Shown one piece after another: positions 10,413 through 57,910 of a stretch of 57,910 nucleotides of DNA; position 1 is the stretch's first letter; every line of letters begins with the position of its first letter. Source of the DNA: Bacteroidaceae bacterium (GTDB lineage: Bacteria; Bacteroidota; Bacteroidia; Bacteroidales; Bacteroidaceae); assembly GCA_017507105.1 (NCBI GenBank), contig JAFWBM010000026.1, positions 1 to 57,910 of the forward strand, in the 5' to 3' direction. A program made the translations under genes and the position numbers. Below the pieces are notes generated by a model that saw nothing but the letters and a program-made list of their open reading frames with translations, was not told where the DNA came from and did not search any database.

Positions 10413-10985
10413 TCAAAAGAATATGAACAACAGTGGTATTGCAATACCTACAATGAGTTCAACACCGCCCCTACCCCACAATCCTTTTGGCCCCTTATTC
10501 ATTATCATACCTGTAATAGTAATAAGAATAAGTGATATTGCAAAAATATCGGAGAAGTAGGTCCACCATCTCCCGGGATTATAGTGTAGCTTTGTCAGTG
10601 TACCTATAACAATACGTGGTGTCAGTTTCTCATATACCGCCTTGTTACTGCTCAAATCGACAACTAAATTAGATCCTCCCTTAAGAAATACCTTCATTGT
10701 ACTTTCACCAGGGAAATAGTGTTTGGTATAATTATTCTCTTCATCCAAAGTGCTTAGCAAACTTAACACATGCTCTTTCTTTATAAAATCTTTCGCAGGC
10801 AACTCCTTTTCCAATACAAAGTTCTTTACCTCAACCGAATAATTGGGATTGATAACGTTTCTATGATTCATTACAATACCGGAAACTGCATATATAAGAA
10901 TCATTCCCGAAAAGAAGAATGAGAGATCGCGATGTATCGTACGACTCCACTTGCGGATTTTTGTTGCTATATCATTTAATTTCAT
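10413..10985 (-). CDS. PepSY-associated transmembrane-helix protein
   Basis: A 190-residue inner-membrane protein. The first ~45 residues (KIRKWSRTIHRDLSFFFSGM onward) match the PepSY-associated transmembrane helix, a segment with a conserved RxxHR-like motif. A periplasmic domain of about 95 residues follows, then helices near residues 140-160 and 172-190. Such proteins often neighbour siderophore or haem uptake genes and some are thought to handle reductase-type electron transfer for iron; this one is shorter than the full PepSY reductases. It overlaps the upstream lipoprotein gene by 14 bases, indicating coupled translation and a shared job. Family assignment is fairly firm; function is inference. 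Confidence 0.7.
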   Translation of the reverse strand: MKLNDIATKIRKWSRTIHRDLSFFFSGMILIYAVSGIVMNHRNVINPNYSVEVKNFVLEKELPAKDFIKKEHVLSLLSTLDEENNYTKHYFPGESTMKVFLKGGSNLVVDLSSNKAVYEKLTPRIVIGTLTKLHYNPGRWWTYFSDIFAISLILITITGMIMNKGPKGLWGRGGVELIVGIAIPLLFIFF

Positions 10986-11553
10986 ATGAAAGTGCCTCTA
11001 CAAAATAGAACGACAAGTATGCTTTGCCACACTCTTCCTGACGCTTTGCAATCTTGGTGCGGAAATCGGCTATACGTTCTGCCACTGTATTGGCTGTTTC
11101 GCCACGAGCATTTTTCTCGGTGCTGCATCCACCCTCTCCTTCACCATGATTATCGCCACACTCAGCTTTCTCTTTTGCTTCCCACTGCTGCAGATACCCC
11201 TCATCTATGCGCTCTTCTTTAAGCACACCTTTAACTTTCACGATGCTATTGATACATTTGGTATCGAACGAGCCAAGTTTAGCTGCCTCTACACGAATGG
11301 TCTTTGTATCATCGCTACCCATGATAAATATTTTTGTTGCACCATGTTTACATGCATGTGTACACACTCCATCAAAAACCACTTCTTTATCTACAAGCGA
11401 CTCTGCATTGGCTAGCAAACCATCTACATCCATTACCTGTACTACAGCTGTTTGCTCCGCGTTTTGCGATACCGGCTGTTGCTGTTTATTCCCACATGAT
11501 ATTAGCATAGAGATGAAAGCCATTGCTACAATAGTAAATCTGATTGTTTTCAT
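10972..11553 (-). CDS. Lipoprotein with OB-like domain and Cys/His clusters
   Basis: A signal peptide ends in a lipobox (SMLISC), so the mature protein should be lipid-anchored on the periplasmic side. The middle ~90 residues (DVDGLLANAESLVDKEVVF to KVKGVLKEER) have the pattern of a small OB-type beta barrel and contain CTHACKHG, which could bind a metal or form a disulfide. A second cluster, CGDNHGEGEGGC, follows. The C-terminal ~45 residues are predicted helical and include one more Cys. It is the first gene of a two-gene operon with the PepSY-type membrane protein. I do not recognise a named family; a role in metal or redox handling is suggested only by the Cys/His content and the partner. 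Confidence 0.65.
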   Translation of the reverse strand: MKTIRFTIVAMAFISMLISCGNKQQQPVSQNAEQTAVVQVMDVDGLLANAESLVDKEVVFDGVCTHACKHGATKIFIMGSDDTKTIRVEAAKLGSFDTKCINSIVKVKGVLKEERIDEGYLQQWEAKEKAECGDNHGEGEGGCSTEKNARGETANTVAERIADFRTKIAKRQEECGKAYLSFYFVEALSYEIK

Positions 11554-11710
11554 TTCTTGTTCTTGTGTTTTTTATTAATAATACATTTACGTTTACCTAT
11601 AAATCCTCTGAAGAAATAGATGAATTTTCTTTTACAGAAGAATATCAGTTGCAATAATATAAAAAGATAACAACAGATGCAAGATATATAAATAATAATA
11701 TTAAACAGAA

Positions 11711-14215
11711 TTATCGGTATAGTCTACCATAATTAAACTCAAAACCGACTGCTTTATATCCGTTGTCCTTGAATTTCTTGTAAAAATCCTTATACTCGGA
11801 ACATTCTTCTGTATCCGGAAGGGTATTTAAGAATAGTTCAAAATCGTTCCAGTCGGGCCACATCTGAGATATAAGATTATGAGGTACAAAAGTTACAGGA
11901 CCGTCTATATGAGAATGGAGCTGACCAATAAGGTAAAAAAGGTATTTCATAGGATGTTTGGCAACTCCATCCTTTAGAAATCCTAGAGCCTTAGATGAAC
12001 ATACATACTTGACATCTGTATTATTACCATTCTTATAGAATACTCTCTTTGATGTCAACCAGAATATACTAAATATCTCATTTAAGGGTATATTCTCATT
12101 AATTGCATTCCTTAGAATATCCAACTGTATAGATTCGTATTCTTCATTACTCATAAGTAGATTCCAATCATATATATTATTTTTTATCTCATTAATAAGT
12201 AAACAGACATAATATGATACTCCATTCTCGTACATTAAACTACGTAAAATCTGTGCTTTCTCTTCATTTGTTGCATTAAAACCTGTTATAAGATTAAAGA
12301 TAATATCCTGTGAACAGAAAAACCTTTCACCAACTGCACAAGTATAGAATATTATTCGTAACAACTTTAATCTTTCAGAATCATCTAACGGTTTATAATA
12401 TCTATAATGTTTAAGCAAAGCTATTTTTCTACCATCAATATATTCCTTTGTAAGGGTATTTCTCATCTCATTAGACTCCATTGCTACATATTTGTCAAAC
12501 TCATCGGTATAGATATCCGAATACTGTAATATTCTATAAAAATAGCGTGACGTATAGAATGAGTCGTTGAACTGTTTGTCTTTAGGAAAGGATACATAAT
12601 CAGGCAATAAACGGGATAGAATATTTTTCAATTTTACCTTATCATTCTCTTTTAGTTTATCTACAGCCTCACTTTTCCATATCACTTTTTTATTATGGCT
12701 ATATAGTTTATCAATCTTGTCACTATCTGTCCAAAGCCTGTAATAGCCCGATTCGTTTTTAAAATACTTTTCATAATCGCAACTTAACATATTATACACT
12801 GTCGGAAGATAGAGTTTAAGCATAGAGACATCTGCAAGGTCACATATACGCACTTCGTTTCTAAGAAGTTTATATTCCATTCTTATGGAATTTATCCATC
12901 TTTTGGCATCACGTATATTCTTTATATAGTCCTCATGTGGTTTTTCGCGATATATAAGGCCTTTAGACTCCACATAATTATCTTTAAAATCAATATAATC
13001 GTCATCACTCATAAACTCTTTAACCTTGGCCAGAATATACTCGCTTACCTTTTCAGATGAAAACTTCGGGAGATAGAATTCGGCCTGAAAGAATTTCTCA
13101 ATAAATCGTTCATTATCTATATTGCGAACACTATTTATTGCATTTATTACATACTCCTTGTCGTATGCTGCAATAAAAATCATATTCGGGAAATTAGCAC
13201 TGCCTCTGATTATTTTAAATATCTCGAGTATCTCCTCTCCATTGAGTCTGTCTAAATCATCTATAATCACTACTATACGTTCGTTACGGGCCAAAAGGAT
13301 TTTTGAGATATTATCAAATAATTCATCGGGTTGAGGTTCGCTACCAAGCAGTGAAAATCCAATGGAACCGAACTCTCCTATTACATGTTTCGAATACTCT
13401 CTGATGAGATTGAAAAGCACTCTGTTCTCATTTGCCACATATTTTAGCAGCTGAGTGAAAAATGCCGAACATACATCGCGGCTCGAAGAGTGATGCCATG
13501 GAGAAAAATGGATTATTCCAAGGTTACAGTTCATACTCTTCACTTCGTTTACAAACAGTTTCAGGAATGAGGTTTTACCCTCTCCCCAAGGAGCAACAAC
13601 CCCAATTGAATATGCACTTTTTCCGGTATCGCAATCAACGACTGTTTTAACAAATTCCTTAACAAATGGTAATCGACCAAGTATATCCTCCTTGCTATCG
13701 GTAATTGCATCATCTATCAACAGATTATCCCCACTTACATTTTCGGCCGACACAGTAGATGCATACCTGACACATTCCGTAATATACAGAATGAGTATAG
13801 CAGCAGATAGGAGACCTGCAACATCGAAGTAGGTGAGATATCCTTCTACAATATATTCCCATGTAATGGAACTATCGCACCATCTAATATATATATAAAA
13901 CAAGAGCACATAAAAAGATAATGCCAATATCATATCGGGCATCCTTTTTCTATAGAATTTCTTTACAATAAGGCATAATGCGGATATGAGGAAAAATAGA
14001 GTTGTAATCCTTGTCGCAACTGAATTGTTGAATTTATTATGCATATAAAGTGATACATCCATCACTATATCGTGAATTGCCGGAAGAAATGCATGAAACA
14101 GGATTATTGTAAGCAGAAATGCGCATAAGCCCAGCCAACCACACCTAAGAGATATATCCTTGAGGAAGGATACAAGAAGATTATTAAGAGATTTTTTATA
14201 ATTGATTCGTTTCAT
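11711..14215 (-). CDS. KAP-family membrane P-loop NTPase
   Basis: An 834-residue protein. The N-terminal ~150 residues contain about four hydrophobic helices. The P-loop reads GVVAPWGEGKTSFLKLF near residues 203-219, and a Walker B strand IVVIIDDLDRL lies near 313-323, followed by the conserved stretch ending in IFIAAYDKEYV. This arrangement, with membrane helices next to the P-loop domain, is typical of KAP NTPases (Kidins220/ARMS and PifA relatives). PifA blocks phage T7 growth, and other KAP genes occur in defence islands. The C-terminal ~400 residues are helical and unassigned. The gene stands alone and appears more AT-rich than its neighbours, which is compatible with acquisition. The molecular role is unknown; phage exclusion is the leading guess. 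Confidence 0.82.
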   Translation of the reverse strand: MKRINYKKSLNNLLVSFLKDISLRCGWLGLCAFLLTIILFHAFLPAIHDIVMDVSLYMHNKFNNSVATRITTLFFLISALCLIVKKFYRKRMPDMILALSFYVLLFYIYIRWCDSSITWEYIVEGYLTYFDVAGLLSAAILILYITECVRYASTVSAENVSGDNLLIDDAITDSKEDILGRLPFVKEFVKTVVDCDTGKSAYSIGVVAPWGEGKTSFLKLFVNEVKSMNCNLGIIHFSPWHHSSSRDVCSAFFTQLLKYVANENRVLFNLIREYSKHVIGEFGSIGFSLLGSEPQPDELFDNISKILLARNERIVVIIDDLDRLNGEEILEIFKIIRGSANFPNMIFIAAYDKEYVINAINSVRNIDNERFIEKFFQAEFYLPKFSSEKVSEYILAKVKEFMSDDDYIDFKDNYVESKGLIYREKPHEDYIKNIRDAKRWINSIRMEYKLLRNEVRICDLADVSMLKLYLPTVYNMLSCDYEKYFKNESGYYRLWTDSDKIDKLYSHNKKVIWKSEAVDKLKENDKVKLKNILSRLLPDYVSFPKDKQFNDSFYTSRYFYRILQYSDIYTDEFDKYVAMESNEMRNTLTKEYIDGRKIALLKHYRYYKPLDDSERLKLLRIIFYTCAVGERFFCSQDIIFNLITGFNATNEEKAQILRSLMYENGVSYYVCLLINEIKNNIYDWNLLMSNEEYESIQLDILRNAINENIPLNEIFSIFWLTSKRVFYKNGNNTDVKYVCSSKALGFLKDGVAKHPMKYLFYLIGQLHSHIDGPVTFVPHNLISQMWPDWNDFELFLNTLPDTEECSEYKDFYKKFKDNGYKAVGFEFNYGRLYR

Positions 14216-50182: not shown

Positions 50183-50220
50183 TAAGATGCTATGCTTTGG
50201 CATAGCATCTTATCTTTTTA
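50183..50220 (+). terminator. Terminator of the fucose operon
   Basis: TAAGATGCTATGC at 50183-50195 pairs perfectly with GCATAGCATCTTA at 50200-50212 around TTTG, followed by TCTTTTTA. Confidence 0.92.
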
Positions 50221-50333: not shown

Positions 50334-51794
50334 ATGAAAAACGTCATTGCAATATTACTAATAATAGTATGTGCGTCTGATTATATTACCGCACAGACAA
50401 ACAATGCAATTCAATCGTCAATGGATTCGTTAAGAATGAAATTTGAACAAGATGCGGAACAATCTGTTGCTGAATTCGAGGAATATAGCAAAAAAGCACG
50501 TGAGGAGTATGAACAATACGAAGCACAGATGCGCAAAGAGTATTTCAACTATGTAGAGTCTATCAAAGGTGTATGGGGCAATGACACTATTATCGATGAC
50601 ACCAAAACAAAATGGGTTGAATATAGTGATAACTATAAAGACCGTTCTATTGTAGATTTTGAAAATGGAGAAGTATCGATAGAAGTTGCATTGCAGGATG
50701 AAGATGAAGATAATCCCGAAAAAGTAGAAGAACGTTTGACTGAAGCTATAGAGAGAGCATTAAATAGTCGTGGAACAACTTGTCCATATAGCTCTAAAGT
50801 GGATGCATCAGAACACCTTACCAAAGAGCCTATTCTGGACGGTTTGTTGGATTTATCACAATTTGACCTTAGCAGATTGCAAACAGAAGAAAAAGATGAA
50901 CAGGTAGTCAAGAATGTCCGTCCTGTACCCGTAGCACCAAAAGTAAAAAGTAAAGAACTAAACATAAAAGATACAGAAAAGGTTATACCCAAGCCACAGA
51001 ACAGAAATGGTGAGACAATGGCTAGTCTGGCTATGCAGGGTAAAGGCAAAAAAGAGATATCAGAACAACAAGAAAAAGCACGCCAGCTAGAGCAGAAGAA
51101 TAATGAGAGAGCAAAAGCTATTGCCAAGCAGAAGAATTACAACACAAGAGATCTAGCCAAAGCTATTGCTAAACAAAGCGTAAAGAAAACCACTCAGGTA
51201 AAGGGAGATGACGGAAAGAAGCGTACAGTTGTTGCAATAGAGATGAGCCTTGTTACTGACAACCTATCGAAGAATGCAGCACTATATAAGGACTACATAG
51301 CAAAATACTCTCAGACATTCCAAATAGAGCAGCCGTTAATCTATGCTGTTATGGAACAAGAATCACGTTTTAATCCCGAAGCCACAAGTTGGGTCCCTGC
51401 ATATGGCTTAATGCAATTGGTACCTAAATCGGGAGGATTCGATGCTTACAGATATGTATACAAGCGTGAATGGGCTCCATCAAAGAGCTACTTGTATGTA
51501 CCTCACCAAAATATTGAATTAGGAACTGCATATCTTAGAATATTGATGAACCAATTTGCATCAGTAACTGATCCAGATTGTCGTCGACTATGCGTGATAG
51601 CCAGTTACAACACTGGTGCAGGAAATGTGAGCAGAGCATTTACAGGAAACACAAATATAAAGAAAGCAATTCCTCTTATAAACAAATATAATTACACCCA
51701 ATTGTACAACCACCTTACCACAAATCTCAATACAGAAGAGGCGCGTAACTATGTAAGCGGTGTAAGCAAACGTAGAGAGAAGTATTTGAAATAG
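50334..51794 (+). CDS. MltC-like lytic transglycosylase
   Basis: A 486-residue protein with a signal peptide (through YITAQT), an N-terminal domain (~25-170) resembling that of murein transglycosylase MltC (EFEEYSKKAREEYEQYEAQM, then GVWGNDTIIDDTKTKWVEYS), a low-complexity Lys/Glu/Gln linker (~210-290) and a C-terminal SLT domain (~325-480). The catalytic Glu is in VMEQESRFNP, with AYGLMQLVP and ASYNTGAGN as the other SLT motifs. It would cut peptidoglycan in the periplasm with formation of 1,6-anhydro ends. Unlike E. coli MltC I see no lipobox. It ends 40 bases before the zinc-ribbon peptidase gene, so it may share a transcript with the zinc-ribbon cluster. Confidence 0.9.
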   Translation: MKNVIAILLIIVCASDYITAQTNNAIQSSMDSLRMKFEQDAEQSVAEFEEYSKKAREEYEQYEAQMRKEYFNYVESIKGVWGNDTIIDDTKTKWVEYSDNYKDRSIVDFENGEVSIEVALQDEDEDNPEKVEERLTEAIERALNSRGTTCPYSSKVDASEHLTKEPILDGLLDLSQFDLSRLQTEEKDEQVVKNVRPVPVAPKVKSKELNIKDTEKVIPKPQNRNGETMASLAMQGKGKKEISEQQEKARQLEQKNNERAKAIAKQKNYNTRDLAKAIAKQSVKKTTQVKGDDGKKRTVVAIEMSLVTDNLSKNAALYKDYIAKYSQTFQIEQPLIYAVMEQESRFNPEATSWVPAYGLMQLVPKSGGFDAYRYVYKREWAPSKSYLYVPHQNIELGTAYLRILMNQFASVTDPDCRRLCVIASYNTGAGNVSRAFTGNTNIKKAIPLINKYNYTQLYNHLTTNLNTEEARNYVSGVSKRREKYLK

Positions 51795-51834: not shown

Positions 51835-53586
51835 ATGTTTTGCCCTGAATGTGGAACTAAAATAGAAGATAACAACCGTTTTTGTCCCGAGTGTGGAACA
51901 AAGATAGAGGAGGTTAAGGTGAATGAGCAGATTGTGACTACCCAGGAAGAACTGCCTACAAATTCTAATGAAGAAGATAAAAGCGACAGTGAGGTTTTTG
52001 CAAGAGGTATTCTTTTCACTAATACAAATCTGCTTGCAAAAAGTATGGAATGCAGTACAGACGACATCACTACTCTACTCCATAAATTTATCGAGATTAA
52101 GGCTGAAGCCGGCATAAAGTACCATCTGCTTGATGCAGCAGACTATACGTATCAGAAAGAGGGATTCTTCAGCAAAGCAAGAAGAGTCTCATTGAACGAA
52201 AAAAGCGATGTATGGGACTACACCGATATCCTTTATGATTTTTACAAGAGACTATCCAAGAAGAAAGGAAACGAGCCAAACTATCTGTTTATAATAGGAG
52301 GTGACGATGTTATACCAATGCCTTGCGTAAAGCACTACATTGCAGATGACAAGCACGACGACTCCATAGACACTGATATTCTATATGCCTATCCATACGG
52401 AAAACAGATGCTGCCATTATTGGAGAATCAGGAGATTTTCAAATACGATCAGTTGTTTTTCATTGGCCGATTACCTTTTGGAACAGATGCCTCAATAAAT
52501 GACTTGAGTAGTTATCTGCAACGAGATATTAACAACACATATGGTATACCATTTAACGAAGCTTACGGACAGTGCGATCCGAACTGGAAGAACACATCGT
52601 CTAAAGTAGCAAAGGGTATATATAGGTATTTCCGCAACTTTGATGGCAGACTATCGAACGAATACTATTTCAACAGAATTATACTGTCGCCAATGGTACA
52701 TGCCGGCAATGTCGCAGAAATATTCCATAAAGACGCATCACTATTCTACTTTAACCTTCATGGTGGTAAGGCACTGCAATCCCGAGGATATGCCGGTGCC
52801 GAGCAAGGTGGTAGCCGCACATTCTCTGTAATTGTACCCGAGCACATGGCAACCTGCGAACAATCTAACATAGTTGTAAGTGAAGCCTGCTACGGAGGAC
52901 GTTTTATTGGATTCGATAAACACCACAGCATGCTCCTATCTTCGATACATACAAATAGCATGGCATTTGTAGGCTCATCACGTGTAGCATGGGGTGGATG
53001 TGACAGACCTACAACCACACCTCAGAATGCATATATTGGCAATGCCGACATAATAGCACAGAGTTTTATAGATGCTATGTTACAAGGCTACACTACAGGT
53101 CAAGCAATGTTCATTGCACGCAGCCAGGTGCTTCAACAGCATCAGGAGGGCGACCCAAGGGCAGCACTAACCGTTGTTGAATTTAACCTTTATGGTGATC
53201 CTATCATCTTCTTTGATATAGATTCCGAAGATAACAAGAGCGCAAAAGAGGTAGAACTGGTACCATACGCAGACAAAGATGCCACACTAGGATGCAAAAC
53301 AAGCGAAATACAAAGCAGCAACAGCGGTTCTATACTTGACCAGGTACGCAACGCTGTAAATGCAAACATCATGCAGATACACCAGACAATAGGAACCTAC
53401 CTATATAAGAATTATGGTTTAGAGCCACGACAACCGCAAAGCATTATCCGCATGCAATATAACAATGGCAAGGAAGAGTATAGTTTTAACTATGCTACGA
53501 GCGACAAGGATTCAGAAACACCTATGTATATGAGCGTTACAACGTCTGTAAACGGAGATATACTAAGTGTAGAATCAAGCAAGTAA
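51835..53586 (+). CDS. Zinc-ribbon C25/gingipain-like cysteine peptidase, cytoplasmic
   Basis: A 583-residue protein with no signal peptide. It opens with a zinc ribbon (C3, C6, C17 and C20; MFCPECGTKIEDNNRFCPEC), followed by an acidic linker and, from about residue 60 to 460, a caspase-like alpha/beta domain. YLFIIGGDDVIPMP and LFFIGRLPFG are core strands. Candidate catalytic residues are H309 (FNLHGG) and C352 (SEACYGG). The GSSRVAWGG segment and the closing VEFNLYGDPIIFF match clan CD family C25 (gingipain) proteins. Gingipains are secreted and have C-terminal sorting domains; this one has neither. The last ~120 residues are unassigned. It leads a cluster of zinc-ribbon proteins, 44 bases before the SPFH gene. 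Protease fold and catalytic pair are inferred from motifs; substrate unknown. Confidence 0.8.
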   Translation: MFCPECGTKIEDNNRFCPECGTKIEEVKVNEQIVTTQEELPTNSNEEDKSDSEVFARGILFTNTNLLAKSMECSTDDITTLLHKFIEIKAEAGIKYHLLDAADYTYQKEGFFSKARRVSLNEKSDVWDYTDILYDFYKRLSKKKGNEPNYLFIIGGDDVIPMPCVKHYIADDKHDDSIDTDILYAYPYGKQMLPLLENQEIFKYDQLFFIGRLPFGTDASINDLSSYLQRDINNTYGIPFNEAYGQCDPNWKNTSSKVAKGIYRYFRNFDGRLSNEYYFNRIILSPMVHAGNVAEIFHKDASLFYFNLHGGKALQSRGYAGAEQGGSRTFSVIVPEHMATCEQSNIVVSEACYGGRFIGFDKHHSMLLSSIHTNSMAFVGSSRVAWGGCDRPTTTPQNAYIGNADIIAQSFIDAMLQGYTTGQAMFIARSQVLQQHQEGDPRAALTVVEFNLYGDPIIFFDIDSEDNKSAKEVELVPYADKDATLGCKTSEIQSSNSGSILDQVRNAVNANIMQIHQTIGTYLYKNYGLEPRQPQSIIRMQYNNGKEEYSFNYATSDKDSETPMYMSVTTSVNGDILSVESSK

Positions 53587-53630
53587 AAATATAATAAGAA
53601 AGGAATATAACAACATTAAAATAGAACACC

Positions 53631-55916
53631 ATGAAATGTCCATTCTGCAACGAAGAGATTAAGCAAGGAGCCAAGTTCTGTGTACACTGTGGCAAGAAAC
53701 TTGAAGTCGCCAATACATGTCCACAATGCAACTCTCCACTGAAAGAGGGTGCCAAGTTCTGTACAAAGTGCGGCACTAAGATATCAAGCGGTAAGCTTAA
53801 TGACAAAACACCGTTACCTGCAGACATAGAGAGTGCAACAGAACGCATCTATTGGAACATACAGCCGGGACAAGTTGCACGTGTAATAAGCGAAGCCGAG
53901 TTTGAATCTTATAATAAGGTAAAAGGAGTTATTATCTCCGAAGGTACCACAGCCTACATACGTGCCAACGGACATACAATTGCAAGTATCAGCGGTGGAA
54001 CATACGACTTTATACAAAGCGCAATAGTACAACAGAACGAAAGCAGCAGCCCCTTACGAAAAGGATGGCAGTTTATAACCAACCTTTTCAAGAGCAAGAA
54101 AAAAGAGGAAGAGAAAAAGGAGGAACAAAATACTCCCGAAGCACTATTCATGCAACAGCAGAATGCCATACTGGAAAATGCAAAACGCGGTGCTGCCTTC
54201 TCGGTTGTTGTAATATTGAACAAAGCATTCCCATTACTAATCGGTGCCAAACAGAGTAGTCTTGATGCATATAAGGAGTTTAAGCCTATGCAGATAAAGA
54301 CACGTAATGCAACAATGAACATGGGTGTAAATGCTTATTTCAGCATACAGGACCACGAACGTTTCATAAGCCATTACCTTACCGACCGCCAAATTCTAAA
54401 CACTACACTTATTGTTGATGAGATATCTGACAGCATACGAGTAGCACTGCAAGATGTTTTATATAATACAGAATTTGCCGAGAACCACGTGCCAAAGGAG
54501 ATGCATCAAAGCATCAAGGAGGCGATAAATGAAATCGCTGTTGATACATTCTTTGGAATATCAATGGTACGACTTGTCGAGGTATCGGCATCAAATGATG
54601 ATATTGAGCGTTTCAACGCACTAAGCCGCGAATTGTATCTGTCAGAGCAAGAACTTGACTACTTGCGTCGTACAAATGATTTCAAGAACCGCTTGGCAGA
54701 CACACAGAACAGTCAACGCCTACACGAAGCACGCAGCGAAGCTGAATTGCGCCGCGAACTTGATAACATCAACCGTGACAATATCCTGCACGAGGACGAA
54801 CTGAAGAAGTTTGAATACCTGCTGGCCAATGAACGTATAATACGTGAAGCACGAAGTGACGACGAACGCAATGCGGCATTAGATGAAATTGCCAGAACAG
54901 GACTTATACGTCAAGAGGAGATGAACGCTCTACGCGACAATCTCAAGACCGAAGAGTACAAGCGAGGTACAGCATTGGCTATGATGCAGTTGCGTGACAG
55001 TATTGAGTTTGAACGCATACGTCTTGAGGGTGAAGCAGACAAAGCCGTTACTATTGCCAAAAAACAGATTGAGCTGAATATGATAAACGACGAATATAAT
55101 GATAGCCGTTATTATAAAGAGCTCGAGAAAGAGAGTGCAGCAGCAAACGCTACTCTCGACATTGAACAGCGCAAACGCGACATGGATTTCAATGACGAGA
55201 AACGCCGCAGTGAGCTTGAGCGTGAAGAAAACGATGCACAGTTCAAACAATTCATGGAAATGCAACGTGCCCAGGAAGAAGCTAGACAGAATGAGCGCCG
55301 TCATGAGGCTGAATTGGAGCAGGCACGCATGAGAAACGCACAAGAGACCGAACGTTTGAAATGGGAAAATGCACAAAATCTTACAGAAGAGCAAGTATGG
55401 GCTCTTACCGGAGGTGAAAATGCACGTGCCTATGCCGAAAGTAAATATAATATGGAGGCTGAACGCAGAGCTATGGAAGAGGCCAACAGACGCGTCGATG
55501 CAGAACGCGCAGCTCGTGACGCCGATAACAAGGAGACTAAAGAGATGATGCTCAGAATGATGGAGATGGCAATCACCGGCAAGAACGAGACACAACGTGT
55601 ACAAGAGGAGGCACGAAGAGCCAATGAACAATTGGCCGATAAAGAACGTCAAATACGTGAAAGAGACGAACGCATACGTCGCCAAGAGGGACGCATGGAC
55701 ACTGCATATGACAGAGCTCTAGACTACACGACACGTAACAATGTTGCACAACAGCATGCTCCCGCACAACAGCAGCACATACAGCAGCCCGTGCAGCAAC
55801 CCATACAGCAAGCTGTAGCAGAGAAGACTGTAGTGACATCTAATATCTGTCCCGAATGTGGTGCCGAGGTTGAGGCTGGCAGTCGTTTCTGCGACCAGTG
55901 CGGAGCAAACTTGTAA
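53631..55916 (+). CDS. SPFH/band-7 protein with N- and C-terminal zinc ribbons and long coiled coil
   Basis: A 761-residue protein. Two N-terminal zinc ribbons (C3, C6, C17, C20 and C30, C33, C44, C47) are followed by an SPFH-type domain (~80-330; IYWNIQPGQVARVISEAEFE, KTRNATMNMGVNAYFSIQDH). It is of the kind in which B. subtilis YdjI and so-called virion-core-like proteins belong. Next comes a charged coiled coil (~330-680; many EARREAE-like heptads), a Gln-rich stretch (~700-730) and a final ribbon starting at C740 (CPECGAEVEAGSRFCDQCG). SPFH proteins form ring-like scaffolds on membranes. In B. subtilis ydjFGHI the relative works with zinc-ribbon membrane proteins and PspA. No transmembrane helix is seen; recruitment could be by the membrane protein encoded at 56343. 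Confidence 0.85.
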   Translation: MKCPFCNEEIKQGAKFCVHCGKKLEVANTCPQCNSPLKEGAKFCTKCGTKISSGKLNDKTPLPADIESATERIYWNIQPGQVARVISEAEFESYNKVKGVIISEGTTAYIRANGHTIASISGGTYDFIQSAIVQQNESSSPLRKGWQFITNLFKSKKKEEEKKEEQNTPEALFMQQQNAILENAKRGAAFSVVVILNKAFPLLIGAKQSSLDAYKEFKPMQIKTRNATMNMGVNAYFSIQDHERFISHYLTDRQILNTTLIVDEISDSIRVALQDVLYNTEFAENHVPKEMHQSIKEAINEIAVDTFFGISMVRLVEVSASNDDIERFNALSRELYLSEQELDYLRRTNDFKNRLADTQNSQRLHEARSEAELRRELDNINRDNILHEDELKKFEYLLANERIIREARSDDERNAALDEIARTGLIRQEEMNALRDNLKTEEYKRGTALAMMQLRDSIEFERIRLEGEADKAVTIAKKQIELNMINDEYNDSRYYKELEKESAAANATLDIEQRKRDMDFNDEKRRSELEREENDAQFKQFMEMQRAQEEARQNERRHEAELEQARMRNAQETERLKWENAQNLTEEQVWALTGGENARAYAESKYNMEAERRAMEEANRRVDAERAARDADNKETKEMMLRMMEMAITGKNETQRVQEEARRANEQLADKERQIRERDERIRRQEGRMDTAYDRALDYTTRNNVAQQHAPAQQQHIQQPVQQPIQQAVAEKTVVTSNICPECGAEVEAGSRFCDQCGANL

Positions 55917-55938
55917 AACAATTTTCAGGCAAAGACAG

Positions 55939-56340
55939 ATGGAAAGGATAGAAGGCATAATAAAAATAGAAGAGCGTACAAACGGTTCCAAATCCCAAGG
56001 TGCCGTTGCTATTATAACTACAGGAGATAGTAAAGAGTATATTCTGTACCGTAGCGAGATGTTGCCCGAGAACGACCCGTTCTTTACACAATTCAATAAT
56101 CAAAATGTGGTTATAAACGGTGAAACAGAGACTAGCGGATACATCTGTGTAGCATCTGTAGAGAGTGAGAATGGAGTTATAATGACACCCGAGTTCCCTG
56201 AATACCCTATTGCTTCTGCCCCACTGTTCATTGGAGACTTACCCATAAAGATGAGCGAAGAGTCAAAACCTCTTAAAGGTAAACGTCTGCCAAGAAAACT
56301 TAAAAAGCTATTGAAAAAGAAACTAATAAATAATAAATAA
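55939..56340 (+). CDS. Small protein of the zinc-ribbon cluster, beta-rich with basic tail
   Basis: A 133-residue protein starting at the ATG at 55939, 22 bases after the SPFH stop. An earlier in-frame start at 55858 is rejected because it would read the ribbon codons of the SPFH gene in another frame. The first ~90 residues have alternating strand-like segments (MERIEGIIKIEERTNGSKSQ, AVAIITTGDSKEYILY, NVVINGETETSGYICVASVE), suggesting a small barrel. The last ~25 residues are strongly basic (RLPRKLKKLLKKKL), able to bind acidic membrane lipids or nucleic acid. It ends two bases before the next gene. No family recognised; the only lead is its constant place within the cluster. Confidence 0.7.
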   Translation: MERIEGIIKIEERTNGSKSQGAVAIITTGDSKEYILYRSEMLPENDPFFTQFNNQNVVINGETETSGYICVASVESENGVIMTPEFPEYPIASAPLFIGDLPIKMSEESKPLKGKRLPRKLKKLLKKKLINNK

Positions 56341-56342
56341 AG

Positions 56343-57707
56343 ATGAGCGAAAAACTATTCTGTCCCGAGTGTAATGCTCCATTAAATGGAGATGAGCAGT
56401 TCTGCGACAATTGCGGAGCAAAGCTGAACTCAATAAAGAAAGAAGATAAAAAAGCCCCTGTAGAGCCAAGCAGTGGAACTATTGCCAGAAATAAAAAAGA
56501 TGATGGCAATGATATTTCACGCAACAATGTGATGGGTAACATAAACAAGAGCACCACCACAAACACAAGCAATAGTCTGACCAACAACAAAGTTGACAAC
56601 TCTACAAGTAACGTAAGCAACAACATGTCGAGTATTGACAACTCTACAAGTACTGTACATAACAACACTACAATTGTTATGGGTGGTAAAACTGAATCGG
56701 AGTTCTGTCAAGTATGCGGTAATCCAATAGAGGAGAAACATGCAAGATGTCCTAAATGTGGAAAGAGCATTTGTTTCGATTGTAAGGTAAAAGGTAAGAA
56801 CCGTTGTATTGAGTGCGAGAAAAAAGCTGTAAACGAATACCGTATGGCATTTCAGGAACTTTTGTTTACCACACAGGGCAATATTGGAATAGCCGGACGT
56901 CAGATGATGAATAGAAAAGCACAAGAGCTAGATGTGGAGGATAAGAAAAAAGCCATAGAGGATGAACTTAATGAGGTCTACAAAGAGCAGACAAAGGCTC
57001 AACAGCCTACAATAGTCCCGACAGCCCCGACTAAACCTGTCCCTCCCCAGGAACCACAAGTTAGGCAACAGCAAACTACTGCTACTGCACCAGAAACAAG
57101 AGACGAAGAAAAAGGTGTTGGAGCAATAGATGGACGCAAGCCCCTTAAAGCACCAATAACAGAGAGTAGCAAGAATTCGGGTAAAGGCAGTGGTTCTAAA
57201 GTGTGGTTATTTACAGCAACAGCTGTAGCCGTAATTTTGCTTGTATATGTGCTCATGGGAGGAAAAGAGACTGACAACAAAGAGGTTACCCCTAAAACAA
57301 AAACCGAACAGGAAACACCCAAAGCACAACCTGTTGTTAAAGAGAACAAAGAGCAGAACAAAGAGCAGAAAAACGATAAGAAAGAGGATACAGTGAAAGC
57401 GACTGCAGACACACAAAAGCAGGAGCCTAAGATTGCAGAGAAACAAGAGGTAAAACCTATTGAGAAACCAGTAGAGCCACAAAAAGTAGATGCAGACTAC
57501 GATGCCGGAATGAAAGCATACGAAGCAAAAGATGGTTTAAAAGCTATAAAACACTTCAAATCTTCGGGTAGCGCTGAATCGCTATACATGTTAGGTATTA
57601 TTTATGAGAAAGGTTGTGGAAGAGTTCCCAAGAATCCTTTGATGGCACGTCAGAACTTCAAAAAGGCAGCCGAGATGGGCCACGAAGATGCAAAAGCAAA
57701 ACTTTAA
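56343..57707 (+). CDS. Zinc-ribbon membrane protein with Sel1/TPR-like repeats
   Basis: A 454-residue protein, in order: zinc ribbon (from C7, FCPECNAPLNGDEQFCDNCG), an Asn/Ser/Thr-rich linker (~55-115), an eight-Cys region (C122-~158: CQVCGNPIEEKHARCPKCGK, CFDCKVKGKNRCIEC) that would bind two zinc ions, a helical segment, a Pro/Gln stretch, one membrane helix (~285-305, VWLFTATAVAVILLVYVLMG), a Lys/Glu-rich linker and a C-terminal Sel1-type repeat (~385-454; YDAGMKAYEAKDGLKAIKHF, MLGIIYEKGCGRVPKNPLMA). I expect cytoplasmic zinc modules and a periplasmic Sel1 end. It could anchor the SPFH scaffold to the membrane. No single named family fits the whole chain. Confidence 0.78.
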   Translation: MSEKLFCPECNAPLNGDEQFCDNCGAKLNSIKKEDKKAPVEPSSGTIARNKKDDGNDISRNNVMGNINKSTTTNTSNSLTNNKVDNSTSNVSNNMSSIDNSTSTVHNNTTIVMGGKTESEFCQVCGNPIEEKHARCPKCGKSICFDCKVKGKNRCIECEKKAVNEYRMAFQELLFTTQGNIGIAGRQMMNRKAQELDVEDKKKAIEDELNEVYKEQTKAQQPTIVPTAPTKPVPPQEPQVRQQQTTATAPETRDEEKGVGAIDGRKPLKAPITESSKNSGKGSGSKVWLFTATAVAVILLVYVLMGGKETDNKEVTPKTKTEQETPKAQPVVKENKEQNKEQKNDKKEDTVKATADTQKQEPKIAEKQEVKPIEKPVEPQKVDADYDAGMKAYEAKDGLKAIKHFKSSGSAESLYMLGIIYEKGCGRVPKNPLMARQNFKKAAEMGHEDAKAKL

Positions 57708-57775: not shown

Positions 57776-57910
57776 ATGATTAAGAAACTATTATTTGTAC
57801 TTATTGCTGCTTGGGCAATTGGTATTAACGCACAAGAGTCTAAGAAAGATCGCCTATTCATCGATTGGTTCACAGAAACTGAGAATGTATCGGAAGATGA
57901 TAGCGACAAG
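57776..57910 (+). CDS. Secreted protein, 3' end outside window
   Basis: The ATG at 57776 opens a frame that runs to the window end (45 codons). It begins with a signal peptide (MIKKLLFVLIAAWAIGINAQ) followed by the charged ESKKDRLFIDWFTETENVSE. Only the N-terminus is present, so no family can be assigned. It lies 68 bases after the zinc-ribbon/Sel1 gene on the same strand and might belong to the same operon. Confidence 0.65.
   Translation, partial: MIKKLLFVLIAAWAIGINAQESKKDRLFIDWFTETENVSEDDSDK

Follow-up and report, generated by a model that had tools for sequence, protein, structure and literature searches.

A conserved, apparently undescribed Bacteroidales gene cluster combining a gingipain-fold peptidase, a predicted SPFH/zinc-ribbon scaffold and exported envelope proteins

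In Bacillus subtilis, YdjI, which is predicted to be soluble, acts with YdjG and YdjH to bring PspA to the membrane, and cells lacking YdjG or YdjH show disturbed wall synthesis under stress, whereas those lacking YdjI or PspA have no such phenotype (passages of PMC8581546). Band-7 genes adjoining pspA have been reported from a number of phyla including Bacteroidota (a section of PMC9239133), and associations of Band-7, zinc-ribbon and TPM proteins are covered in a survey of the phage shock protein (PSP) system whose main text does not use the word 'caspase' (PMC11237479). SPFH operons have been classified in a paper whose main text holds neither 'cysteine protease' nor 'caspase' (PMC2636767), and SPFH or zinc ribbons are mentioned in passages of PMC3581485 and PMC7159879 that do not describe the combination reported here. 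Gingipains, secreted peptidases of family C25, cleave on the C-terminal side of Arg or Lys and are associated with a prodomain at the N-terminus (part of PMC4357240). Here we analysed a stretch of 57,910 nucleotides from a Bacteroidaceae bacterium (GCA_017507105.1, contig JAFWBM010000026.1; hereafter the window), in which a cytosolic zinc-ribbon peptidase of the C25 type is encoded in a cluster with a predicted SPFH scaffold protein, a small partner, a Sel1 membrane protein and exported envelope proteins. This combination is conserved, is larger than a first-pass annotation of the window had proposed, and is undescribed by our searches: literature queries on SPFH with gingipain, caspase or zinc ribbon and on C25 neighbourhoods, with subscription journals and preprints outside the search, returned no description of it, as that annotation had supposed. 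In the gut bacteria that carry it, the cluster may represent a protease-based response to cell-envelope damage, a description of which was not found in the literature searched.

The four central genes of the window are as follows.

51835..53586, + strand: cytosolic C25 gingipain-fold cysteine peptidase (predicted) with an N-terminal zinc ribbon and H309/C352, 583 amino acids
53631..55916, + strand: predicted SPFH-domain coiled-coil protein with two N-terminal and one C-terminal zinc ribbons, 761 amino acids
55939..56340, + strand: small peptidase-partner protein with the [ST]KS[EQD] motif (GSKSQ in the window), 133 amino acids from ATG
56343..57707, + strand: single-pass membrane protein (predicted) with N-terminal zinc ribbons, a transmembrane segment, a charged/proline-rich stalk and a C-terminal Sel1 repeat, 454 amino acids

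An open reading frame check reproduced the coordinates, the common + strand and the intergenic gaps of 44, 22 and 2 bases, all as claimed, and the six ribbon modules that had been counted in three of the proteins were recovered with Pfam Zn_Ribbon_1 (one in the peptidase, three in the SPFH protein and two in the Sel1 protein). To assess conservation, relatives were collected by genome searches and by a scan of one genome per species; 17 of the 41 scan loci were used (L063-L079), and the other 24, which match only query residues 1-67, were left out. Profiles built from the relatives were run over 23 loci with the close form of the peptidase, the window included, 22 of which show the downstream side. 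L116 was excluded from the downstream counts, as its contig ends after the peptidase gene, and duplicates were counted once (L041 and L117 equal L069; L212, L213 and L214 equal L066, L063 and L064). The results showed that the SPFH gene follows the peptidase gene in 21 of the 22 clusters (absent from L064), that the small gene is present in 21 (absent from L039), and that the Sel1 gene is present in all 22. Conservation of the neighbourhood in relatives, set beforehand as a check on the proposal, was thus confirmed.

The conserved unit is not limited to these four genes, and that limit was rejected. A transglycosylase gene adjoins the peptidase gene upstream in 17 of the 21 loci in which this could be judged (absent from L076, L078, L111 and L112; cut in L065 and L075), and two families of exported proteins, c4 and c5, occur in 19 of 19 judgeable loci, accompanied by a third, c6, in 17 of the 19. 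In L111 and L112, c4 and c5 lie upstream of the peptidase gene instead of downstream, and this changed order indicates that the company of envelope genes is kept through rearrangement. The idea of a four-gene cluster therefore held as to the reality and placement of its genes and fell short in extent, the unit also comprising the transglycosylase gene and genes for LpoB/FlgT-like (c4), DUF6175 (c5) and LPP20 (c6) proteins. The corresponding features at the two edges of the cluster in the window are listed below.

50183..50212, + strand: terminator-like hairpin of 13 pairs with a T tract, located by pattern scan only, after the preceding sugar-transporter gene
50334..51794, + strand: secreted, MltC-like lytic murein transglycosylase with an SLT domain (PF01464, 1.8e-26; Mltc_N, 2.2e-8)
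57776..57910, + strand: first 45 codons of c4, an LpoB/FlgT/CsgG-like exported protein, then the contig end (c4 profile positions 1-45, 20.7 bits)

The transglycosylase gene ends 40 bases before the peptidase gene. The hairpin is likely the upstream limit of the operon, and because it lies between the transporter and transglycosylase genes, the latter is probably the first gene of the operon; a Bacteroides-type promoter pattern gave no match near 50.2 kb. The window is the complete contig C13 of a 2.1-Mb genome in 52 contigs. Another contig of the same genome, C47, starts with the C-terminal part of a c4 (profile positions 209-300 of 308); next come genes for DUF6175, LPP20 and lipoprotein-like proteins, the last of 182 amino acids. 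The two contigs do not overlap, and we infer from the gene order in relatives that they belong together.

Co-occurrence across the family pointed in the same direction as the gene neighbourhoods. A close transglycosylase (E ≤ 1e-20) was found in 5 of 151 family genomes, all of them among the eight with a peptidase match at that level, and the chance of such a five-out-of-five co-occurrence is about 1e-7 by our own arithmetic, which ignores relatedness. It adjoins the peptidase gene in four of the five; in the fifth genome (G329) it adjoins a cluster without the peptidase, and a divergent peptidase is encoded elsewhere. The names of carriers include Bacteroidaceae, Muribaculaceae, Cryptobacteroides and Butyricimonas sp. 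Marseille-P3923, a cultured carrier with the cluster on L067. At the level of the order, 3 of 198 genomes, the genome of the window included, match beyond the ribbon. In a sample of the phylum, 60 of 395 genomes matched; among the matches listed, only the gene of the window and that of G595 matched in the catalytic part, and the remaining ones covered only the first 80 profile positions, that is, the ribbon end. A phylum-wide spread was therefore rejected, and the phylum count is a lower bound because at most three candidates per genome were scored, so that ribbon proteins may have crowded out weakly matching true relatives.

The peptidase starts with MFCPECG and has no signal peptide visible by eye, in agreement with the claim that it differs in this from secreted gingipains, and no transmembrane-like stretch was found in it (best 19-residue hydropathy 1.14). 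All 26 aligned peptidases share N307, H309, G310, C352 and G354, and the corresponding residues are also unchanged throughout a mixed set of 25 sequences that includes eight distant relatives free of zinc ribbons. Pfam C25 matched 20 of the 26 family members at E ≤ 0.1, the window peptidase, when scanned alone, not being among them. Two of four members scanned singly exceeded the C25 cut-off (48.4 and 39.9 bits versus 23) and two divergent ones gave no match; a ribbon-free relative scored 43 bits, and the Pfam model covers nearly the whole domain in relatives. An AlphaFold2 model (predicted local distance difference test, pLDDT, 85.1; predicted template modelling score, pTM, 0.86) had gingipains R and K as its top five PDB matches, with E values from 2.9e-12 to 1.7e-10, template modelling (TM) scores of 0.42-0.43 on the query and 0.53-0.58 on the target, and an overall root-mean-square deviation of about 21-22 Å; the next-best fold matches include CHAT proteases linked to CRISPR or SAVED and separase. 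In the model, H309 and C352 are placed just after predicted strands 303-307 and 345-349. The predicted fold, the 26/26 conservation and this placement fit the assignment of H309 and C352 as a clan CD pair. The ratio of nonsynonymous to synonymous substitution rates (dN/dS, NG86) was 0.08-0.13 in five pairs of peptidases, a rough estimate since dS exceeds 1 in four of the five. From its sequence and model, the peptidase is likely an active enzyme. Mapping of the S1 pocket onto gingipain by sequence was dropped, as the hmmsearch alignment covers too little. At least two CxxC knuckles in the first 110 residues were present in 26 of 26 Bacteroidales peptidases versus none of the eight free-standing relatives; the zinc ribbons go with the Bacteroidales setting of the peptidase.

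Two observations concern possible exchange of genes. L076 and L078 are closely related operons whose SPFH, small, Sel1, c5 and c6 proteins are 94-99% identical; their peptidase genes show 60-79% nucleotide identity per segment over residues of about 150-550 versus 91-93% before, and their c4 proteins share 80% amino acid identity, being much more divergent than their neighbours. In this one pair, the middle of the peptidase and c4 look as if exchanged by recombination. Besides, L110 (G236) and L116 (G288), from different genera, encode peptidases and transglycosylases that are about 95% identical, which suggests a recent transfer or a binning artefact.

The small protein has no Pfam match, and the sole match in a PDB search by sequence was a repetitive one in which no single stretch was significant. 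Conservation of the protein is strongest at [ST]KS[EQD], a motif carried by all 26 homologues compared (as SKSE in L074). The basic tail by which it had been described is real in the window and is not conserved, at least nine K/R residues in the last 30 being found in only 8 of the 26 homologues; the tail was therefore rejected as an important feature. G595 (L189) has a peptidase without zinc ribbons, and the gene directly after it encodes a small-protein homologue. A plasmid search with the G595 peptidase returned ten records (six from Rhizobium, two from Bradyrhizobium, one from Novosphingobium and one from Sinorhizobium), seven of which were also found with the window peptidase as the query. 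Seven of the ten records were fetched (H1, H2, H3, H5, H7, H8 and H9), and all seven carry a small-protein homologue directly after the peptidase (E 5.5e-9 to 8.2e-5). The pair, free of ribbons, is hence present in eight of eight distant loci, that is, the seven alphaproteobacterial plasmids and G595. The peptidase and the small protein are a two-gene unit and the most testable new element of the cluster.

Losses within the cluster bear on the same pairing. L188 (G329:C33, 4721-14042) lacks both the peptidase and the small gene and has the transglycosylase, SPFH, Sel1, c4, c5 and c6 genes, and L064 (7001-10050) lacks the SPFH gene, retains the peptidase and small genes and encodes a Sel1 protein without N-terminal ribbons. 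These losses suggest two linked sub-units, one of the peptidase with the small protein and the other of the SPFH protein with the ribbon-bearing Sel1 protein. As for the surroundings of the ribbon-free pair on large rhizobial plasmids (L190-L192, L194 and L196), ferritin-like and radical SAM genes lie near it in L190 and L192, a ferritin-like gene in L196, and chitosanase and L,D-transpeptidase genes in L191 and L194; the records of L193 and L195 are without annotated genes.

Sequence profiles give hardly any backing to the SPFH label: the window protein has no Pfam Band_7 or Band_7_1 match, Band_7_1 was found in 1 of 19 family members (E 0.012), and hhalign against two classical SPFH proteins gave probabilities of 0.9 and 2.0%, too weak to decide. 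The label thus stands on the predicted fold. For a model of residues 63-440 (pLDDT 81.5, pTM 0.68), the 23 best PDB matches were all to entries titled HflK/C, SPFH family, stomatin, erlin, flotillin or QmcA, with HflK/C and stomatin as the best fold matches (best E 2.3e-5; TM 0.20-0.33 on the query and up to 0.67 on a stomatin domain), and by this model the protein has an SPFH fold followed by a coiled coil. The Sel1 protein has a Pfam Sel1 repeat at its C-terminal end and a predicted transmembrane segment around residues 287-305. By the positive-inside rule, its N-terminal ribbons should be cytosolic and its Sel1 end periplasmic, and the absence of these ribbons in L064, where the SPFH gene is also missing, hints that they serve contact with the SPFH protein.

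Among the exported proteins, c4 matched several Pfam families at E ≤ 0.1 in the 16 members scanned, namely LpoB in nine (best 2.2e-7), FlgT_C in six, CsgG in two and FlgT_M in two. Bit scores were below the cut-off both for LpoB in the member for which they are given (19.5 versus 22.3) and for FlgT_C (17.3 versus 27), and a PDB match to FlgT had an E value of 0.03. The c5 gene of the genome to which the window belongs encodes a DUF6175 protein (2.8e-52), and its c6 gene (L148:1610-2947) an LPP20 protein (33.6 bits versus a cut-off of 25.9). DUF6175, which was not named in the open literature searched, is present in 48 of 198 genomes of the order and so is not specific to this cluster. In L155 (G288:C26, 2188-7734), a DUF6175 gene and the gene for a classical Band_7_1 protein lie close together, separated by two genes, one of whose products starts with CxxC knuckles; this is a second, different SPFH/DUF6175 neighbourhood, in which no C25 peptidase was recognised.

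From the conserved organisation, we infer a function and a complex. We tentatively favour, with slightly less than even confidence, a PspA-independent envelope-stress (envelope-maintenance) system spanning the whole envelope, whose closest analogy would most likely be a YdjGHI-like, PspA-free scaffold to which a Lys/Arg-type protease is docked under the control of the small partner. The SPFH protein would oligomerise at the inner face of the cytoplasmic membrane, where the Sel1 protein would hold it through zinc ribbons. The periplasmic Sel1 end, on its proline-rich stalk, could read the state of the peptidoglycan or outer membrane via the LpoB-like, DUF6175 and LPP20 proteins, and the transglycosylase would open or remodel the wall at the same site. 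Clan CD proteases such as caspases, separase, gingipains and CHAT proteases are regulated cutters. With no prodomain in view and a partner carrying a conserved Lys-Ser, the peptidase is proposed to attach to the scaffold through its own ribbon and to be held in check by the small partner, whose Lys-Ser would be a bound or cut site suiting a Lys/Arg-specific C25 enzyme. Envelope damage would then release the restraint, and the peptidase would cut local targets, either the scaffold itself or regulators of the wall or membrane, so that local cutting would reset or dismantle the assembly. The first-pass annotation had put envelope stress and phage defence side by side; the former is strengthened by the transglycosylase, LpoB/FlgT-like, DUF6175 and LPP20 genes in the cluster and is favoured over the latter.

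Several findings weigh against an envelope-stress system of this kind. Its distribution within the genus is patchy, with the close form in 8 of 44 genomes and any form in 13 of 44. The absence of the peptidase and small genes from L188 and of the SPFH gene from L064 means that no part has been shown to be obligatory, L039, with a peptidase and no small gene, is an exception to the two sub-units, and the likeness of c4 to LpoB or FlgT is weak. A divergent set of zinc-ribbon C25 peptidases (L079, L113-L115 and, from a genus search, L205-L211, of which L208 and L211 show the same genes) is found for the most part amid further zinc-ribbon genes. L079, L113, L115, L209, L210 and L211 show an SPFH homologue (in L211 only as a fragment at the edge); five of the eleven loci (L114 and L205-L208) have no SPFH neighbour in the stretch seen, some stretches being cut, and L079, L113, L114 and L115 yielded no small-protein homologue.

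Three further observations were made on this divergent set. The G329 peptidase (L114) lies on another contig than the peptidase-less L188 cluster. A large, similar-looking protein of about 1150 amino acids with MK(D/E)(L/I)N near its start is encoded near the peptidase in L205, L206, L207, L208 and L211. In L079, a protein encoded two genes from the peptidase (10665-11873) matches the PADLOC candidate PDC-S26 (2e-8).

Other explanations were weighed against the same data. The cluster could direct the assembly or export of a surface structure, in which the LPP20, LpoB/FlgT/CsgG-like and DUF6175 proteins would form an outer-membrane ring, the transglycosylase would make room in the wall, and the SPFH protein and peptidase would control assembly or process a component. 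The LPP20 domain above its cut-off, the FlgT_C, CsgG and FlgT_M matches of c4 and the occurrence of c4 and c5, in part with c6, without the cytosolic genes in the fetched stretches of L149, L150 and L151 speak for such a role, and lytic transglycosylases often accompany envelope-spanning machines. However, the cluster has no recognisable outer-membrane channel, export ATPase or evident substrate gene, and the sub-threshold FlgT_C score and poor FlgT match count against the ring; we regard this explanation as unlikely. We consider rather unlikely a membrane-protein quality control system of the stomatin/STOPP or HflKC/FtsH sort, with the C25 peptidase replacing the usual protease and the envelope genes merely co-regulated: the best fold matches of the SPFH model agree with it and operons joining SPFH and protease genes are known (PMC3795559, PMC2636767), but the protease here is cytosolic and of another clan, and the envelope genes keep company despite the changed gene order in L111 and L112. 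A rather doubtful proposal, again centred on the protease, is that the peptidase and the [ST]KS[EQD] protein are an old, mobile pair of protease and pseudosubstrate inhibitor found in two phyla, whose Bacteroidales version would be hooked by ribbons onto the SPFH scaffold as a caspase-like executor; upon envelope failure, the outer-membrane and wall sensors would pull the Lys loop of the inhibitor from the active site.

Abortive-infection defence, in which phage damage to the membrane would be sensed by the SPFH and Sel1 proteins and the cell killed by the gingipain-fold protease, would suit the CHAT and separase fold matches, the patchy distribution of the close form in the genus and the divergence of the peptidase middle and c4 between L076 and L078. 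Against it, neither the peptidase nor the small protein matched any PADLOC profile at E ≤ 1, and c4-c6, the lipoprotein-like gene and the ribbon-free peptidases were without a match at E ≤ 0.001. The matches of the Sel1 protein to PD-T4-6 (3.8e-5, in the linker region), PDC-M43A (0.0031) and weaker ones are not credible, and those of the SPFH protein and transglycosylase are weak (E 0.059 or worse). Moreover, 50,697 phage records held no peptidase match at E ≤ 1e-5, and we know of no defence system in which envelope genes of this kind have a place. The defence half of the first-pass annotation is thus unsupported, and we judge it quite improbable. That the C25 domain is without catalytic activity and serves a structural role would agree with its absence from one cluster (L188), but the invariant catalytic residues in both alignments and the low dN/dS make this very improbable indeed.

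Set beside described systems, the cluster shares LPP20 and LpoB/FlgT-like exported proteins with the Vibrio ring of FlgO, FlgP and FlgT and with the LpoB/CsgG superfamily, LPP20 being FlgP-type; the similarity is weak, however, the partners are unlike, and no flagellar gene was recognised in the cluster. As in Stomatin-STOPP (PH1511/PH1510) and HflKC-FtsH, an SPFH scaffold would have a protease encoded or acting beside it, but the protease here is of clan CD whereas theirs are serine or AAA+ enzymes, and no NfeD protein was recognised in the cluster. With the gingipains RgpB and Kgp, the peptidase shares the predicted catalytic fold and the conserved His/Cys; it differs from them in being cytosolic, in having a ribbon N-terminus in place of the signal peptide and prodomain, and in having a separate gene for a small partner. 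The comparison with B. subtilis ydjFGHI made at the outset was apt for the SPFH/zinc-ribbon part and did not extend to PspA, which was found above the cut-off in none of 10 carrier genomes, several of them incomplete (84-99%), with one sub-threshold match in G278 (19.8 bits versus 33.9) and 9 of 14 control genomes positive. Like pspA-ydjGHI, as described in passages of PMC8581546 and PMC11237479, the cluster has an anchor-free SPFH protein with a zinc ribbon, membrane partners of which one is ribboned, and a suspected link to wall synthesis under stress. Its SPFH domain, in contrast, is too divergent for Pfam, no TPM-domain match was found among the cluster proteins scanned, and it adds a C25 peptidase, a small partner, a Sel1 protein and exported wall and outer-membrane proteins. 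A cytosolic clan CD protease embedded in an SPFH/zinc-ribbon scaffold alongside wall and outer-membrane proteins would be a novel means of coupling envelope state to proteolysis in Bacteroidales.

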